Translations under genes and position numbers: made by a program | NCBI RefSeq assembly: GCF_002786295.1 | Contig: NZ_PGTC01000018.1 | Span: forward strand, 1 to 64,000 | Direction: 5' to 3' | DNA length: 64,000 nucleotides | From: Pseudooceanicola marinus | Lineage (GTDB): Bacteria; Pseudomonadota; Alphaproteobacteria; Rhodobacterales; Rhodobacteraceae | Notes under the pieces: generated by a model | What the model was told of the DNA's origin: nothing | Seen by the model: the letters and a program-made list of their open reading frames with translations, nothing else | Databases searched by the model: none | Part shown: in pieces, positions 1-6,798 of the stretch | Numbering within the stretch: position 1 is the first letter of the stretch | Layout: every line of letters begins with the position of its first letter

Positions 1-1
1 C

Positions 2-85
2 GGAAACTCCGTCTGCCCGCCCGTGGCCGCGGCTGTAGTGAGGGCGAATTGTGGGCAGTTGGCTGAGAAGGAGGCCGCAGCATGA
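2..85 (+). CDS. C-terminal end of a probable phage-type DNA cytosine methyltransferase (partial)
   Basis: An open frame enters from the left edge and stops at a TGA that overlaps the ATG of the next gene (ATGA). The 27 visible residues start with GNSVCPPVAAAVVRAN. This matches the GN-x-V-x-PPxA segment near the C-terminus of C5-cytosine methyltransferases, which lies just after the target-recognition domain. Only the tail is visible, so catalytic motifs cannot be checked. The tight coupling to two small ORFs and an integrase suggests an orphan methyltransferase carried by the integrated element. The family call rests on one short motif. Confidence 0.5.
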   Translation, partial: GNSVCPPVAAAVVRANCGQLAEKEAAA

Positions 86-276
86 CAGACCTGCACACCC
101 CTGACGAACTGGCCAAGGCGAAGGCTCACGCCGAGAGCCGCGCCGCCGAAGCGACGAAGCCCGCGCTGCGGATCTTCCTCCAAGCCTGTGCTGATGTCCT
201 GGCCGAAGCGCTGAAGAGTGAGAAAGGCGCCCTGATCCCAGCTGAGATTGACCGCCTCGACCGGGCTGACAAGTAG
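82..276 (+). CDS. small hypothetical protein of the integrated element
   Basis: 64 residues, acidic and alanine-rich, predicted to be mostly helical. A strong AAGGAGG ribosome site lies 7 bases before the ATG, which overlaps the upstream stop as ATGA. I do not recognise a family. Position between the methyltransferase tail and the recombination genes, with translational coupling, indicates an element-borne accessory gene rather than a host gene. Confidence 0.6.
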   Translation: MTDLHTPDELAKAKAHAESRAAEATKPALRIFLQACADVLAEALKSEKGALIPAEIDRLDRADK

Positions 277-303: not shown

Positions 304-480
304 ATGGACATCACATCACAGCGAACGGCCATGCGGCCTGCCGACATGCGCCGTGCAGTCTCCGAATGGGTCTCGAAAGGGTGCACGGTCAAGATCGGCC
401 CTGACGGCTCGATCGAAGTGAAACCGCCCCAGGTGACGATGGATGACGCCGACCTGGTTGACTGGACCCGCAAGGCATGA
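304..480 (+). CDS. small protein coupled to the integrase
   Basis: 58 residues, starting MDITSQRTAMRPADMRRAVS. A GAGGGAAG ribosome site precedes the ATG, and the stop overlaps the integrase start as ATGA. The residues RPADMRRAVSEWVSKGCTVK could form a helix followed by a short strand. Excisionase or directionality-factor genes often sit directly before integrase genes. A role as excisionase is therefore possible, but it is inferred from position only, and no MerR-like helix-turn-helix is evident. Confidence 0.55.
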   Translation: MDITSQRTAMRPADMRRAVSEWVSKGCTVKIGPDGSIEVKPPQVTMDDADLVDWTRKA

Positions 481-1484
481 AGCGGCACCTACCTCCCTAC
501 GTCTACGCAAAGGGCAAGAGGGGCTACCTCTACTTCGTGAGGGGCAGCATCTGCGAGCGGATCAAATCCAACCCGGGGACCCCTGAGTTCGCGGCCGACT
601 ACGCCCGCTTGCTGCGGGGGAGATCCATGGCACCGCGGCGCACGATCTCGAAGCTGATCGACGAGTTCATGAGTTCGCCCAAATGGGCTGGCTATGCATT
701 CAACACCCGACGCAGTCATGAACGGCATCTCGCATACATCCGGGATGTCGCCGGACACGTCGATCCGAGCCAGCTGCGAACTGTCCATGTCTACGAAATG
801 CGCGATGCCCTGGCAGACAAACCGACCGATGCAAACCGCAAGCTGGACACCCTGGCGGCGCTGCTGAACCACGGGAAGAGGATCGGCTGGCTAGACGGGA
901 ACCCAGCCCAGGGAGTGGAGCGGCTAAAGCCCACGGGGCGCAAGCGCCGACCCTGGCCAGTGGACCTGATTGAGGCCTTTAGGGCAAACGCATCCGGGCG
1001 CACTCTGCTGTTGTTCGAGCTGCTGCTAGGAACCGGACAGCGCATCGGTGATGTCCTCGACCTCAGGTGGTCCGACTTGGACGAAGACGGCTTCACCATC
1101 ACGCAAGGCAAAACTAAGACCGAACTCTATATCCCGCTTACGGATCGACTTCGCAGGGTTCTGGCAGCCGAGACGAAGAAGGGCTTTTTCATTGTCTGCC
1201 ATCCCGATGGCAGCCGGATCAGCTACCAGCTTGCGCACAAGAACATCATGGCCGTGCGCCGTGAGATCGGCGCCGAGGCCTACGATATTCATGGGCTGCG
1301 CTACGCTGCCGCCTCCGAAATCGCCGCGATTCCGGGAATGACCTCAGAGCATGTGAAGGCGATCACCGGACACGCTGATGCGGCCATGATCCGGCTCTAC
1401 GCCGGCGCGGCCGTCCAGAAGGCGCGAGCCCAAGAGGCCCAGAAAGCACGCACGGACAAAGACAGCACGAAACGCGAACTTTGA
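477..1484 (+). CDS. int: tyrosine recombinase / integrase
   Basis: 335 residues. An N-terminal arm and core-binding domain (about 55-150) is followed by the catalytic domain. The catalytic set is complete: R189 in [11 protein letters not shown]212/K214 in GKTKTE, H272 and R275 in HGLRYA, H299 in GHA and the nucleophile Y308 in RLYAGA. It catalyses site-specific strand exchange between element and host attachment sites. The gene ends 55 bases before the point where host ctrA homology begins, the usual layout of an integrase beside its own attachment site. Everything upstream to the window edge belongs to the element. Length and motifs suggest an active enzyme. Confidence 0.93.
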
Positions 1485-2075
1485 AACGCTTTTGAAATTG
1501 AAACGGTCTACCATTGATTTTAAAAGATAAACCCAGAAATACAGATGTTTCAGGAACATTTCCTTGGTCAGGGTCGTGCCCTTGCGCAGCGACAGCAGTT
1601 CCAGCATCTGGTATTCCTTGCCAGTCAGATGCACGGGCTTGCCGTCCACCTCCACTGTCTTGGCATCAAGGTTCACCTCGATCCGGCCGGTGCGGATGAT
1701 CGACTGCGAGTGCCCCTTGGACCGGCGGATGATCGCATGGATGCGCGCCACTAGTTCCTCGCGATGGAAGGGTTTCGTCAGGTAATCGTCGGCGCCGAAG
1801 CCGAAGCCCTTCAGCTTGTTCTCGGTATCGTCAGCGCCCGACAGGATCAGGATCGGCGTCTCGATCCGCGCCAGGCGCAGCTGACGCAGCACCTCGTGCC
1901 CGTTCATGTCCGGAAGGCCCAGATCCAGCAGGATCAGGTCGTAATCATAGAGCTTGGCAAGATCGATGCCCTCTTCGCCCAAGTCGGTCGTGTAGACGTT
2001 CAGGTTGGCATGGGTCAGCATCAATTCGATGCTCTTCGATGTGGTCGGATCATCTTCTACCAAAAGCACGCGCAT
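1344..2075 (-). pseudogene. ctrA: cell-cycle response regulator CtrA, 3' end replaced by an integrated element
   Basis: CtrA is the OmpR-family master regulator that the CckA-ChpT phosphorelay phosphorylates. In Rhodobacterales it controls motility and gene-transfer-agent genes. Residues 1-179 match the family nearly perfectly: receiver domain with phospho-acceptor D51 ([10 protein letters not shown]) and K101 in LTKPF, linker, and the first half of the winged helix ([11 protein letters not shown]). After [11 protein letters not shown] the frame runs into the element and adds about 64 unrelated residues encoded antisense to the integrase 3' end. The recognition helix and wing are lost, so specific DNA binding should be abolished. 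The missing ~60 codons should lie at the far end of the element, outside this window. Excision would restore the gene. Confidence 0.9.
1536..1560. other. element-chromosome junction (putative attachment site) inside ctrA
   Basis: Reading ctrA on the minus strand, homology to the family is continuous through [11 protein letters not shown] and stops at about 1539. CtrA proteins normally continue with GG-M-D-E-P and the recognition helix. Here AT-rich sequence of the element follows. The crossover core is therefore likely within or beside bases 1536-1560. The second copy of the core should lie beyond the left edge of the window, so the exact core cannot be defined here. Confidence 0.7.
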
Positions 2076-2170: not shown

Positions 2171-2449
2171 CTAAGATTGTCTGTACTTCTGCAATGCCGT
2201 CGCCTTCAGCGCCTCCTCGCCATGGTTGGCGACCGCGCTGACCCACTCCAGAAATTCCTCCGGTGAGAGCGAGTATCTCTCAAGCGCCTCGTCCTGGGAT
2301 ATAAGACCATGGACCACCCCCCGCACGACGGCCGCCTTGCGCGAGGCGACCCAGCGACGGGTCGTCGCCGGCGGCAGATCCGCCCGCGTCATCACCCGGC
2401 CATCCGGCAGGGTCACCGCCCGCGGCCCCTGGACTTTCTTTAGATACAT
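2171..2449 (-). CDS. sciP: SciP, CtrA inhibitory protein (DUF1153)
   Basis: 92 residues with the family signature: LPDGRVMTRADLPP near the start, then TTRRWVASRKAAVV and the helix-turn-helix-like LISQDEALERYSLSPEEFLEW. In Caulobacter, SciP binds the DNA-binding domain of CtrA and blocks activation of its targets; it also contacts DNA. The gene is directly upstream of ctrA on the same strand, the usual neighbour. I chose the ATG at 2449, which begins MYLKKVQGP as in relatives; a GTG five codons upstream (2464) is possible. Its partner here is truncated within the domain that SciP contacts, so its role in this strain is doubtful. Confidence 0.88.
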   Translation of the reverse strand: MYLKKVQGPRAVTLPDGRVMTRADLPPATTRRWVASRKAAVVRGVVHGLISQDEALERYSLSPEEFLEWVSAVANHGEEALKATALQKYRQS

Positions 2450-2621
2450 CGCTCCGGCCCTCACTGGCCCTCAGTAGATCCCCGCCATTCTTTGGGGCGG
2501 GTTTTAACGGCTGGTGAAACGGCGGGTTGAGAGTGTGTCGCATTTTCCTATATTCTCTTGATCTTCGAGCCGGGCCGACGAGTCGTCCCTCTCCCCCATC
2601 CCCGGCCGATCAGGAGCACCC

Positions 2622-3767
2622 ATGGCACTGGACACCGCACCCGAGCTGAATTCCCTGGGCTTCGCCAAGCCCCCGTCCGAGACCCGCGTGGTCGTCGCCA
2701 TGTCCGGCGGCGTCGACAGTTCCGTCGTGGCGGCGAAACTGGCCGAGGAAGGCTATGACGTCGTGGGCGTGACACTGCAGCTGTACGACCACGGCGCGGC
2801 CCTGGCCAAGAAGGGCGCCTGCTGTGCCGGCATCGACATCCACGATGCGCGCCGGGTCGCGGAGGAGATGAACTTCCCCCACTATGTCCTTGATTACGAA
2901 AACATCTTCCAGGATGCGGTGATCGACGAGTTTGCCGACAGCTACCTGGCGGGCGCCACCCCAGTGCCCTGCATCCGCTGCAACGAACGGGTGAAGTTCA
3001 AGGACCTGCTGGAGACGGCGAAGGATCTGGATGCCGACTGCATGGCCACCGGGCACTACATCCAGCGCAAGATGGGCGCGACCGGTCCCGAGCTTCATTG
3101 CGCGGCCGATGCGAACCGCGACCAGAGCTATTTCCTCTTCTCCACCACCCCCGAACAGCTGGCCTTCCTGCGCTTCCCGCTGGGCCACCTGCCGTCGAAG
3201 GACGCCACCCGCGAGCTGGCGGCGCAGTACGGCCTGGCCGTGGCGGACAAGCCCGACAGCCAGGACATCTGCTTTGTCCCGAACGGAAACTATGCGTCCG
3301 TAATCGAGAAACTGCGCCCCGGCGCGGCGGAGCCGGGCGAGATCGTCCATGCGGACGGCCGGGTGCTGGGCACGCATGAGGGCGTGATCCACTATACCAT
3401 CGGCCAGCGCCGCGGCCTGGGCATAGGCGGGCTGAGCGAGCCGCTTTACGTGGTGAAATTGGACGTCGACGCCAAGCAGGTGATCGTCGGCCCGAAGGAG
3501 CTCTTGGCCACCCGCCGCGTGCCAGTGCGGGAGATCAACTGGCTGGGCGAGGGCAAGATGACCGACAAGGCCGAACATCACATCTCGGTCAAGGTCCGCT
3601 CCACCCGCCCCCCGCGCGAGGCCATCCTGCGCCCGATCAGCGAGACCGAGGCGGAAGTGGAGCTGCTGAGTGCCGAGGAAGGCATTTCTCCCGGCCAGGC
3701 CTGCGTGTTCTACGAAACCGAGAGCAGCCGCATCCTTGGCGGTGGCTGGATTTGGCGCGGGTACTGA
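2622..3767 (+). CDS. mnmA: tRNA-specific 2-thiouridylase MnmA
   Basis: 381 residues, full length. It adds sulfur to C2 of the wobble uridine (U34) in tRNAs for Lys, Glu and Gln, using ATP to activate the base and sulfur from a relay protein. The PP-loop SGGVDSS is at 28-34. The nucleophile is C120 in [12 protein letters not shown] and the persulfide cysteine is C217 in SQDICF. A GGAGCACCC ribosome site precedes the ATG. The gene stands alone on the plus strand, and a clear hairpin terminator follows. Confidence 0.95.
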
Positions 3768-3960: not shown

Positions 3961-5118
3961 CTAGAGACGGGCGAGGATGGCGCGGGCGGCGCGCAGGCCG
4001 GGGGCCTCGCCGCCGCGACCCAGACGATCCATCGTGACCTCGAGGGCCTCGAACTGGTCGGTCGGATCCTCCAGCACGGCGGAGAGGGCCGGGGCGATCT
4101 TCGCCGCATCACAGTCATCGCCGACGAACTCGGGGATCACCCGTGTGTCGGAGACCAGGTTGACCAAGGTCACCGTGTCGGTGATCAGCATCCGCTGCAT
4201 GATCATCCGCGTCAGCGGCGCCATGTCGTAGGCGATGACCATCGGCGTGTCATTGGCGGCCAGCTCCAGCGAGACGGTGCCCGAGGCGGCCAGCGCCAGG
4301 TCGGCGGCCCGGAAGGCAGCGCGCTTGATCCGGGCGAACTCCGCCGGGTCGGCGTCGCGCGGGTCGAGGATCATCAGCTCCGTGGGCCAGTCGCGCGTCA
4401 GCTCCTCCACCAGCGGGGCCACATGGGCGGCGGCGGGCAGGACAAAGCGCAGCTCCGGGTGGCGGGCGCGCAGCTCGCGCAGCACGGGGCCGAAGACCGG
4501 CGCCAGGCGCGCGACCTCCCCGCTGCGTGAGCCGGGCAGCACCAGCAGGATCGGGGCGTCACCGATGCCGCTTTGGACGCGAAAGTCGTGCACCTCCTCG
4601 ACGGTGGCGATCGGCTGGGTGGCGATCGGGTGGCCGACGAAATCGCATTCCATCCCGGCAGCCTGCATCAGCGGCGGCTCAAAGGGAAAGAGCGCCAGCA
4701 CCTGGTCGATGACGCGCGCCATCTTCACGGCGCGTTTCGGGCGCCAGGCCCAGACCGTGGGAGCGACGTAGTGGACAGTGCGGATCTGCGACCGCGCCTT
4801 CACCAGCTTGGCCACGCGCAGGCAGAAATCGGGGCTGTCTATCGTCAGCAGCAGATCCGGCGGATCGGCCAGCACCGCCTCGGCGCATTCGCGGATGCGG
4901 CGTTTCAGGTGGAAATACTTCGGCAGGATCTCCGCCAGGCCCATGACCGACAGTTCCGACATGGGAAAGCGCGAGGTGAGGCCCTCGGCCTCCATCGCCG
5001 GCCCGCCGACGCCTTCAAAGGTGACCTGGCCGCCCGTCAGCTCCTTCAGCCCGGCCATGACAGCCGCGCCGAGATTGTCGCCCGAAGGCTCGCCCGCGAT
5101 GACGAAGATGCGCATCAT
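3961..5118 (-). CDS. lpxB: lipid-A-disaccharide synthase
   Basis: 385 residues, normal for the family. A GT19 glycosyltransferase that joins UDP-2,3-diacylglucosamine and lipid X to make the lipid A disaccharide at the inner membrane. The N-terminus is MMRIFVIAGEPSGD, with GEPSGD the family start motif. Later motifs seen are APTVWAWRPKRA, FVGHP, LPGSRSGEV and ASGTVSLELA, which contact UDP-sugar. The open frame extends further upstream, but the ATG at 5118 overlaps the lpxI stop as ATGA and fits the family start. It is the last gene of the envelope cluster. Confidence 0.95.
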   Translation of the reverse strand: MMRIFVIAGEPSGDNLGAAVMAGLKELTGGQVTFEGVGGPAMEAEGLTSRFPMSELSVMGLAEILPKYFHLKRRIRECAEAVLADPPDLLLTIDSPDFCLRVAKLVKARSQIRTVHYVAPTVWAWRPKRAVKMARVIDQVLALFPFEPPLMQAAGMECDFVGHPIATQPIATVEEVHDFRVQSGIGDAPILLVLPGSRSGEVARLAPVFGPVLRELRARHPELRFVLPAAAHVAPLVEELTRDWPTELMILDPRDADPAEFARIKRAAFRAADLALAASGTVSLELAANDTPMVIAYDMAPLTRMIMQRMLITDTVTLVNLVSDTRVIPEFVGDDCDAAKIAPALSAVLEDPTDQFEALEVTMDRLGRGGEAPGLRAARAILARL

Positions 5119-5996
5119 GTCTCCTGCACCCAGATCGTGACGCCCAGATCCTCCGCCCGGGCCAGCAGCGCCGCGCGGTCCAGCAGCAGCACGGCCCCCG
5201 GGGCGATGGCGATGGCCGCCAGGCCCGCCGCATGGGCCCCCTCGACCGTGGCAGGGCCGATGGCGGGCATGTCCACGCGCAGGTCCTGCCCGGTCTTGGG
5301 GCGCTTGACGAAGACGCCGGGCGCCCGGCGCAGGTGCGCGGGCGTAGTGGCCACGTAGCGCAGGAGCGCATCGCTGCCCTGAAGGGTCTCGATCCCCAGG
5401 CACAGCCCGCCCGCCACGACGCAGGCCTGGCCGATGTCCAGCGGCGCCATATGCGCCAGGATTTCCGCCCCGCGGGTGGCATCGGCGCGGGCCTGCGCGT
5501 CAGGCGCGGGACCGGCCAGCAGGCCGGGCGTGGGCGCGATCAGCTCGGGAAGGACCTCATGCGCGCCCTGAACGGCAAAGCCTTCTTCCTCGAAGATGGA
5601 GATCACCAGCCGCAGCAGGCTGTCGTCCCCGCCCTGCCCCATGGCTTTCAGCAGGCGCGGGGCGAGCATCAGCATCTTGGCGTCCAGCGCCGTCTTGTCG
5701 AATTCTGGGCGCGCCAGGCTGCCGGCGAGCACGACGCGGGTCACCCCCGCGTCCCGCAGCCCACGGAACAGGCTGCCCAGTTTCTCGAAACGGTAGCGGG
5801 TCAGCGTCTCTTCCGGCAGGTCACAGTCGATACCCGCAAGGGACACGCGGAAGGCCTGCGGCTCGGCTTCGGCCAGAGCCACGGGCAACGCGCCGGCGCC
5901 GGCGATGATCGCGAGGCGCCCGTCTGGCGCCTCTGCCGCCGTCCTGTCCTGTGCTGGGGCCGCGCGGGCCCCGCCCCGCCTGCCGAAGAGCGCCAT
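5115..5996 (-). CDS. lpxI: UDP-2,3-diacylglucosamine diphosphatase LpxI
   Basis: 293 residues. LpxI (formerly DUF1009) replaces LpxH in alphaproteobacteria and hydrolyses UDP-2,3-diacylglucosamine to lipid X and UMP. Seen here: LAIIAGAGALPVALAEA near the N-terminus and the C-terminal segment with RRAPGVFVKRPKTGQDLRVD and PAIGPATVEGAHAAGL, both typical of the family. The first 28 residues (Ala/Arg-rich) are an extension compared with the core. It starts one base after the lpxA stop and overlaps lpxB as ATGA, so the three genes are translationally coupled. Confidence 0.92.
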   Translation of the reverse strand: MALFGRRGGARAAPAQDRTAAEAPDGRLAIIAGAGALPVALAEAEPQAFRVSLAGIDCDLPEETLTRYRFEKLGSLFRGLRDAGVTRVVLAGSLARPEFDKTALDAKMLMLAPRLLKAMGQGGDDSLLRLVISIFEEEGFAVQGAHEVLPELIAPTPGLLAGPAPDAQARADATRGAEILAHMAPLDIGQACVVAGGLCLGIETLQGSDALLRYVATTPAHLRRAPGVFVKRPKTGQDLRVDMPAIGPATVEGAHAAGLAAIAIAPGAVLLLDRAALLARAEDLGVTIWVQET

Positions 5997-5997
5997 T

Positions 5998-6798
5998 TCA
6001 GCCGCCCGGTGTCAGGAAGGAGCGGTCGCTTTCGCCGGTGATGAAATCGACGATCTCGCGCACATAGGCGCTTTCGGTTTCCTCGCCCAGGCGGCGGGCG
6101 CGGTCCTGGAAGGCGCCTTCGCCCTGGGCCAGCATCTGGAAGGCCGCGCGCAGGGCGGTGATGTCCGACCGCGCGACGCCGCGCCGTTTCAGGCCAACCA
6201 GGTTCAGGCCGTCGAGATGGCCCCGCGGCGCCTGCACCAACCCATGAGGGATCACGTCGTTGGTGACCATGGTCACCGCGCCGATGATCGCGCCGCGCCC
6301 GATGCGCACCCATTGATGAACGCCCGAGAGGCCGCCGATGATGACCTCATCCTCGATCACGCAATGGCCGGCCAGGGCGGCATTGTTGACGATGATGACA
6401 TGGTTGCCGACCTGACAGTCGTGGGCCACGTGGCACCCCGCCATGAACAACCCGTCGTCACCCACACGGGTCACGCCGCCCCCGCCCTCGGTGCCGGTGT
6501 TCATCGACACGTGTTCACGGATGCGGTTGCGCTTGCCGATGACCAGCGAGGTCTCCTCGCCCCTGAACTTCAGGTCCTGGGGAATGCCGCCGAGGACCGC
6601 GAAGGGGTGCACCAGTGTCTCTTCCCCGATTTCGGTCCGGCCCTGCACCACGACATGGCTCATCAGCTCGACCCGGGGGCCGATCACGGCCTTGGCGCCG
6701 ATGTGACAGAAGGGACCGATCCGCGCGCCGGGGCCGATCTCGGCGCCGTCCTCGACATGGGCGGAGGGGTGCACGAAGGCTTCGTGGCTGATCGCCAT
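5998..6798 (-). CDS. lpxA: UDP-N-acetylglucosamine acyltransferase
   Basis: 266 residues. First step of lipid A synthesis: transfers a 3-hydroxyacyl chain from acyl carrier protein to O3 of UDP-GlcNAc. The N-terminal two thirds are left-handed beta-helix hexapeptide repeats (for example IGPGARIGPFCHIGAKAVIG). The catalytic histidine is H126 in CHVAHDCQVG, matching H125 of the E. coli enzyme. A helical C-terminal domain follows. Three bases separate it from fabZ, and lpxI begins one base downstream. Confidence 0.96.
   Translation of the reverse strand: MAISHEAFVHPSAHVEDGAEIGPGARIGPFCHIGAKAVIGPRVELMSHVVVQGRTEIGEETLVHPFAVLGGIPQDLKFRGEETSLVIGKRNRIREHVSMNTGTEGGGGVTRVGDDGLFMAGCHVAHDCQVGNHVIIVNNAALAGHCVIEDEVIIGGLSGVHQWVRIGRGAIIGAVTMVTNDVIPHGLVQAPRGHLDGLNLVGLKRRGVARSDITALRAAFQMLAQGEGAFQDRARRLGEETESAYVREIVDFITGESDRSFLTPGG

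Follow-up and report, generated by a model that had tools for sequence, protein, structure and literature searches.

The stretch analysed here (the window: 64,000 nucleotides of Pseudooceanicola marinus, genome G000, contig C18:1-64000) holds, close to its left edge, the gene of CtrA, the best-known master regulator of the alphaproteobacteria. The gene appears to be cut by an integrated element, which raises the question of whether the cut is real, how it came about and what it would mean for the functions under CtrA control. The interruption, as claimed in a preliminary description of this DNA, is borne out by both junctions in the genome and by related cases in seven other genomes.

The split gene in the window

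The interrupted gene forms a fused open reading frame of 243 aa at 1344-2075 (reverse strand), in which a truncated CtrA runs into an element-encoded tail. Residues 1-179 are 98-99% identical to the ctrA product of the seven closest genomes and the ctrA part of the window is matched at E = 2.3e-115; since the junction also recurs in seven other genomes, chance is excluded. The preliminary description had taken the protein to be native up to residue 179, with an abrupt change to element DNA thereafter. The abrupt change stands, while the native end has to be moved back to about codon 175: native codons 1-175 occupy 1551-2075 (reverse strand) and encode the receiver domain and the N-terminal part of the winged-helix domain. 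In Pfam searches, the truncated product contains the full receiver domain (3-112) and only positions 1-35 of the 77 of Trans_reg_C; the intact ctrA of the sister genome G018 covers positions 1-77 of 77. The recognition helix and wing are missing, as had been stated, and the C-terminal part of the domain lies on another contig, C8. On the host side, ctrA is flanked by its usual upstream neighbour, a DUF1153 gene (2171-2464, reverse strand; PF06627), and by a gene at 2622-3767 (forward strand) that we take to be mnmA, both of which occupy the same place in G018. The split of ctrA in the window is thus real and confirmed.

The integrase end of the element

The tyrosine integrase that had been noticed beside ctrA was recovered by profile searches. 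Its frame (477-1484, forward strand, 335 aa) matches PF00589 at 2e-19 over profile positions 15-169 of 172, by which the catalytic domain is mostly covered, and phrog_1 at 4.4e-41. The integrase faces the truncated ctrA frame across a gap of 54 bp. Directly before it stands a 58-aa frame of the element (304-480, forward strand), which shares 52% identity with the frame preceding the integrase in G133 over a stretch of 48 residues, and further out a 64-aa frame (82-276, forward strand); neither of these small frames has a match in Pfam or PHROGs. Two copies of TTGAAAC (1481-1487 and 1498-1504, forward strand), read from the sequence, are candidate arm-type integrase sites, and GTTTCA-type repeats are found at the matching place in most of the other genomes with such an insertion (hereafter integrants).

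The left edge of the window is base 1 of C18 and lies inside the element, and therefore the interior of the element is outside the window. Positions 1-80 (forward strand), cut by the contig end, contain the apparent 3' end of an element gene which, from its GNSVCPPVA motif, we presume to be DNA cytosine-5 methyltransferase-like. Similar stretches occur on five other contigs of the genome (C9, C21, C24, C28 and C29), and on C24, C28 and C29 it is followed by another integrase. It seems that several prophage regions are present in the genome, and the methyltransferase-like repeat at the end of C18 probably broke the assembly. A contig that begins at a repeat common to other prophage-like regions of the genome invites the suspicion of a chimera, in which assembly had joined an integrase to ctrA by error. 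This reading is opposed by the core common to both junctions, with the expected neighbour on each flank (described below), and by the recurrence of the junction in seven other genomes.

The missing half and the site of exchange

The preliminary description had expected the missing ~60 codons of ctrA, with a repeated core, at the far end of the element; both were found on contig C8. With the CtrA C-terminus of a relative as query the match is C8:7554-7754 (91% identical), and with the full CtrA protein it is C8:7539-7754. On C8, the C-terminal half is followed by a gene that is presumably ligA. In the sister species G018, mnmA-DUF1153-ctrA-ligA stand unbroken in a row; MnmA and DUF1153 of C18 are 99% and LigA of C8 is 98% identical to their G018 counterparts, and C18 and C8 therefore represent the two flanks of one insertion. 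Both ends of the element are found at the split target. A second intact ctrA, which would have spoken against the claimed loss, was looked for in G000 and none was found, the remaining full-length matches being response regulators of about 30-35% identity.

Comparison of C18 and C8 with the seven other integrants narrows the site to a 7-bp core, TCCTGAA in the ctrA sense (1549-1555, no strand assigned), which corresponds to ctrA codons 174-176 and is common to both G000 junctions. Seven bases are a usual overlap for tyrosine recombinases. Across all eight integrants, G000 included, the core lies within ctrA codons 174-176 at both junctions, with at least T(C/T)CT(G/C)AA common to the two. The adjoining bases (1539-1548, reverse strand) are DNA of the element's att arm that mimics ctrA codons 176-179, and the native continuation is on C8. 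The window reads KHLY at residues 176-179 and nine relatives translated in frame read NHLY; residue 176 is K instead of N because codons 176-179 belong to the ctrA-like arm of the element.

It is very probable that a phage integrase splits ctrA. The window would show one end of an element that is a prophage or derives from one and has a tyrosine integrase with ctrA codons ~173-180 as its attachment site, and exchange within the ~7-bp core would split the gene. The promoter-proximal half, i.e., the receiver domain with a stub of the winged helix, would stay in place, and the recognition helix and wing would be carried to the other end of the element, where they have no start. Because the element does not supply a new 3' end for the gene, DNA-binding CtrA would be absent as long as the element is in place.

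In G000 the interior of the element is missing from the assembly, and the C8 side of the insertion is less phage-like in content. Some 0.9 kb from the junction stands a DDE transposase (5858-6631), and farther out are LysR, M20 peptidase and TRAP-transporter genes, which are not phage genes; this content of C8 1-7540 may be cargo or the result of rearrangement. G009 and G010 also carry copies of the IS stretch, and C8:1-471 is repeated at the ends of other contigs. When the contig ends and small contigs of G000 were searched with 67 ORFs of the G133 region, a phage body was not found, and what matched was the integrase with its paralogues, a single small ORF and the flanks, besides one large ORF with weak matches. 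In G018, an ~85% relative of the element end on the C-half side lies at C9:146523-146966, away from the intact ctrA. The G000 element may be rearranged, fixed and unable to excise. The IS and the non-phage genes of C8 favour permanent pseudogenisation, by which a decayed or rearranged element would have cost G000 its ctrA for good, with nothing being switched. Such a permanent loss is compatible with the splitting of ctrA by a phage integrase, and the evidence from the other integrants and from the state of the gene halves is taken up below.

Recurrence in other genomes

Integrase relatives beside a split ctrA had been anticipated elsewhere and are present in seven further genomes. Each has the ctrA junction and a related integrase, 52.5-77% identical, facing the N-terminal half of ctrA: Salipiger bermudensis AmN7-7 (the same record as G133), DP6N14-6 and HTCC2601, Salipiger thiooxidans DSM 10146, Paracoccus denitrificans DSM 413, Paracoccus methylarcula VKM B-2159 and Paracoccus cavernae CECT 8482. 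With G000, the integrants number eight. The C-terminal half of ctrA was found in all of them; it lies on the contig and strand of the N-terminal half in five, at a distance of 47.2 kb in G133, 39.7 kb in G441, 49.9 kb in G445, 40.0 kb in G446 and 10.5 kb in G443, and the halves are on different contigs in three (G000, G442 and G444). A second close ctrA was found in none of the eight, the next best match being at most 40% identical. The truncated frame measures 179-184 aa in seven integrants and 243 aa in G000. In five genomes a single contig carries both halves, which lie 10-50 kb apart around the insert; this argues against an assembly artefact, one of the doubts that the preliminary description had left, and we regard a chimeric contig as exceedingly improbable.

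The distribution of the integrase was followed in 394 genomes of the family, a selection from a larger group at about one per genus. The integrase was detected at E<=1e-70 in seven of them, and ctrA is split in two of these, G000 and G133; in the remaining five, ctrA is retained over codons 1-234 or 1-238. Within the genus, represented by 22 genomes, a close copy of the integrase occurs only in G000 (next best, 44% identical). The window integrase alone as query returned no relative in the genome-contig or viral-contig collections; the integrase of Paracoccus phage Pkon1 (see below) returned four in the viral-contig collection, and an alignment of five integrases returned 12 genome-contig and 10 viral-contig loci. 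The integrase faces the ctrA N-terminal half at seven of the 12 genome-contig loci, and the remaining five comprise one site at a gene that we take to be rlmJ-like and four loci of 43-47% identity that lack ctrA.

Among the viral contigs, ctrA was present in the fetched flank of one of the 10 loci, many records ending at the integrase. In this record (IMGVR_UViG_2636415977_000005, 5900-6360), the integrase adjoins the ctrA C-terminal half, with the site flipped relative to the integrase. Two IMG/VR records, this one included, carry the C-terminal half, which in L054 is at the far end. A further record (IMGVR_UViG_3300049828_000349, ~4980-5160) carries a stretch resembling the ctrA core, with no ctrA around it, 80-100 bases after an integrase of 56% identity; it is possibly an unintegrated attP. 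MT839622 (H1) was considered as a second split and rejected: the match starts at the junction, but the ctrA frame continues unbroken across it.

Integrase clade and contents of the inserts

In a tree of 24 integrase rows, whose outgroup row L050 is badly translated (nine stops) and sits on a very long branch, 11 ctrA-linked rows and the rlmJ row form one clade with support of 100/99.9, and the window integrase falls inside this ctrA-targeting clade. The rlmJ row is a second clade integrase of S. thiooxidans DSM 10146 (L169, 6001-7400), 74% identical to that of the window and located at the 5' end of the rlmJ-like gene, the start of which resembles the ctrA core. The site is perhaps a secondary one, used when ctrA is occupied. 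This element and the viral record with the flipped site count against the simple picture.

PHROGs scans covered 25 of 30, 23 of 24, 29 of 31 and 28 of 28 ORFs of at least 170 aa in four regions, most of the omitted ones being integrase, ctrA and flank genes, and 9 ORFs at a smaller cut-off in a fifth. Among the matches listed, terminase, portal, head and tail families occur in G133 (25 ORFs) and G445 (29 ORFs), terminase, head and ejection families in G441 (23 ORFs), and terminase and tail families together with transposases in G446 (28 ORFs). The best terminase families differ (phrog_3717 in G133, phrog_979 in G441 and phrog_15 in G445), and therefore a single lineage of integrase is combined with different phage bodies. 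For the 10.5-kb insert of P. denitrificans (9 ORFs), the matches listed include endolysin, major head and spanin families, and by its gene content the insert looks like a remnant. Its small size and few phage families, as well as the transposase matches in the P. cavernae insert, add to the case for permanent loss in individual strains.

Relation to known systems

Prophages that interrupt a gene and may restore it on excision are known from comK in Listeria and hlb in S. aureus under the name of 'active lysogeny'. The present insertion resembles these in lying inside a coding sequence, in bringing no replacement 3' end and in leaving the gene off. It differs in its target, the alphaproteobacterial cell-cycle regulator CtrA, and reversal by excision is here putative. 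In a literature search, mostly outside subscription papers, no mention of ctrA as an attachment site for phages was met with.

The closest published case is Paracoccus phage vB_PkoS_Pkon1 (MK291442), which is inducible with mitomycin C and whose integration disrupted an OmpR-family regulator gene, with an att core given as GTTTCTCAA(G/C)CAT (Decewicz et al., 2019, PMC6536676, main text). The MK291442 record likewise marks the att site in an OmpR-family gene. The Pkon1 integrase is 54% identical to that of the window, the core GTTTCTCAA(G/C)CAT fits ctrA codons 173-177, including the N/K ambiguity at 176, and the integrase-proximal side and the orientation agree with the ctrA integrants; in what was comparable, the window element has only the integrase end in common with Pkon1. 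We infer that the Pkon1 target is ctrA, a word that is absent from the main text of PMC6536676. The same text places prophage vB_PpaP_PD15 of P. pantotrophus J46, with a recombinase 92.7% similar, also in an OmpR-family regulator gene. Psul1, Pthi1 and Pyei1, described there as targeting tRNA genes or 3' ends, share with these elements the tyrosine integrases of temperate Paracoccus phages, but their target gene is restored intact (PMC6536676). The insertion described here splits the host gene ctrA without restoring it, and ctrA stays split.

Age of the insertions and presumed effect on CtrA functions

Substitutions were counted by the Nei-Gojobori method with G018 as reference. The N-terminal half of G000 ctrA shows 28 synonymous and 2 non-synonymous changes (dS 0.250, dN 0.005) and the C-terminal half 6 and 0, with similarly low dN/dS in intact relatives. 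The four Salipiger integrants have dN of 0.008-0.019 and dS of 0.34-0.76, and the three Paracoccus integrants are looser (dN 0.069-0.154). The GTA_TIM (PF13547) and flagellin (PF00669) families were found above the family cut-off in all 12 genomes tested, eight of which are integrants; of the P. cavernae matches, the one to GTA_TIM is spread over two frames and the one to flagellin is weak (1.5e-6). As GTA and flagellin genes are kept and the ctrA halves look constrained, the insertions appear young and are perhaps reversible. Retention of these sampled regulon genes fits, as far as gene content goes, either a young or a reversible insertion and is proof of neither. Together with the inducibility of Pkon1 (PMC6536676), the two non-synonymous changes of 30 in one half of G000 ctrA and none of six in the other, and the genes kept in all eight integrants, weigh against a permanent loss of ctrA in G000, which we consider plausible, though on balance somewhat doubtful.

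The loss of the recognition helix and wing would entail the loss of CtrA output. The strain would be a CtrA null for DNA binding while the element is present, as follows from the missing domain, and control of flagella, the gene transfer agent (GTA) and other targets would be lost, so that the whole regulon would be switched off; precise excision would bring the function back. A different outcome would be that truncated CtrA still works, as a phosphate sink or a dominant-negative receiver in the CckA-ChpT relay, whereby its function would be changed and not removed. The receiver domain is indeed complete, in seven of the eight integrants the frame ends shortly beyond the junction, and the Paracoccus N-terminal halves, although more changed, are open. 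The stop positions, however, follow from the att-arm sequence, and young insertions would give an equally low dN; a working truncated protein thus seems improbable, and loss of CtrA output is the reading followed here.

Other losses of ctrA

Apparent losses of other origin were also seen. In G015, of the same genus, ctrA is present in pieces of codons 1-158 and 155-238 (L163 and L187; C13:1-521 and C44:1-297), which stop at contig edges in the inverted repeats TGACCTGCCCCC, with the 4-base target repeat GATG. The inverted repeats and the target repeat suggest that an IS cut this gene near codon 157, as read from short contig edges. In G027, only codons 118-238 are present (C58:48133-48808, L162), with a transposase-like frame up to codon ~118 at a short contig edge, and the N-terminal half was not found in a search of the genome. 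The IS-broken appearance of both genes lends weight to permanent loss as an outcome. About 29 of the 394 family genomes, counted by hand and including G027, lack a ctrA match better than E = 1e-60, and some of these are near-complete assemblies; genomes with lower ctrA scores include G067, G261, G292, G369, G398 and G414. Natural loss of ctrA may be commoner than thought.

Significance for phage-host biology

Deletion of ctrA makes R. capsulatus resistant to phage Jorvik, and complementation reverses this (PMC10589892). CtrA is described as controlling GTA production and, ancestrally, motility (PMC9756655), and also as binding promoters of several alphaproteobacterial phages (PMC9437464). Such binding cuts both ways: some phages need CtrA. 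We tentatively consider, with more doubt than confidence, that ctrA serves as a recurrent attachment site which different temperate phages with one integrase lineage use as a switch, in which lysogeny would silence CtrA and with it the GTA, flagella or pili and CtrA-dependent phages, and excision would return CtrA. Flagella and pili are entry points of rival phages. If the switch exists, lysogeny would shield the host and its prophage from GTA lysis and superinfection.

If phages of several kinds dock at the DNA-binding codons of CtrA, there are sequenced strains, P. denitrificans DSM 413 and S. thiooxidans DSM 10146 among them, that would be without DNA-binding CtrA through phage insertion, which matters for what is concluded about CtrA-dependent traits from integrant strains. 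The insertions would thus offer a natural experiment on phages versus gene transfer agents, motility and superinfection, directly testable with the inducible Pkon1 lysogen.
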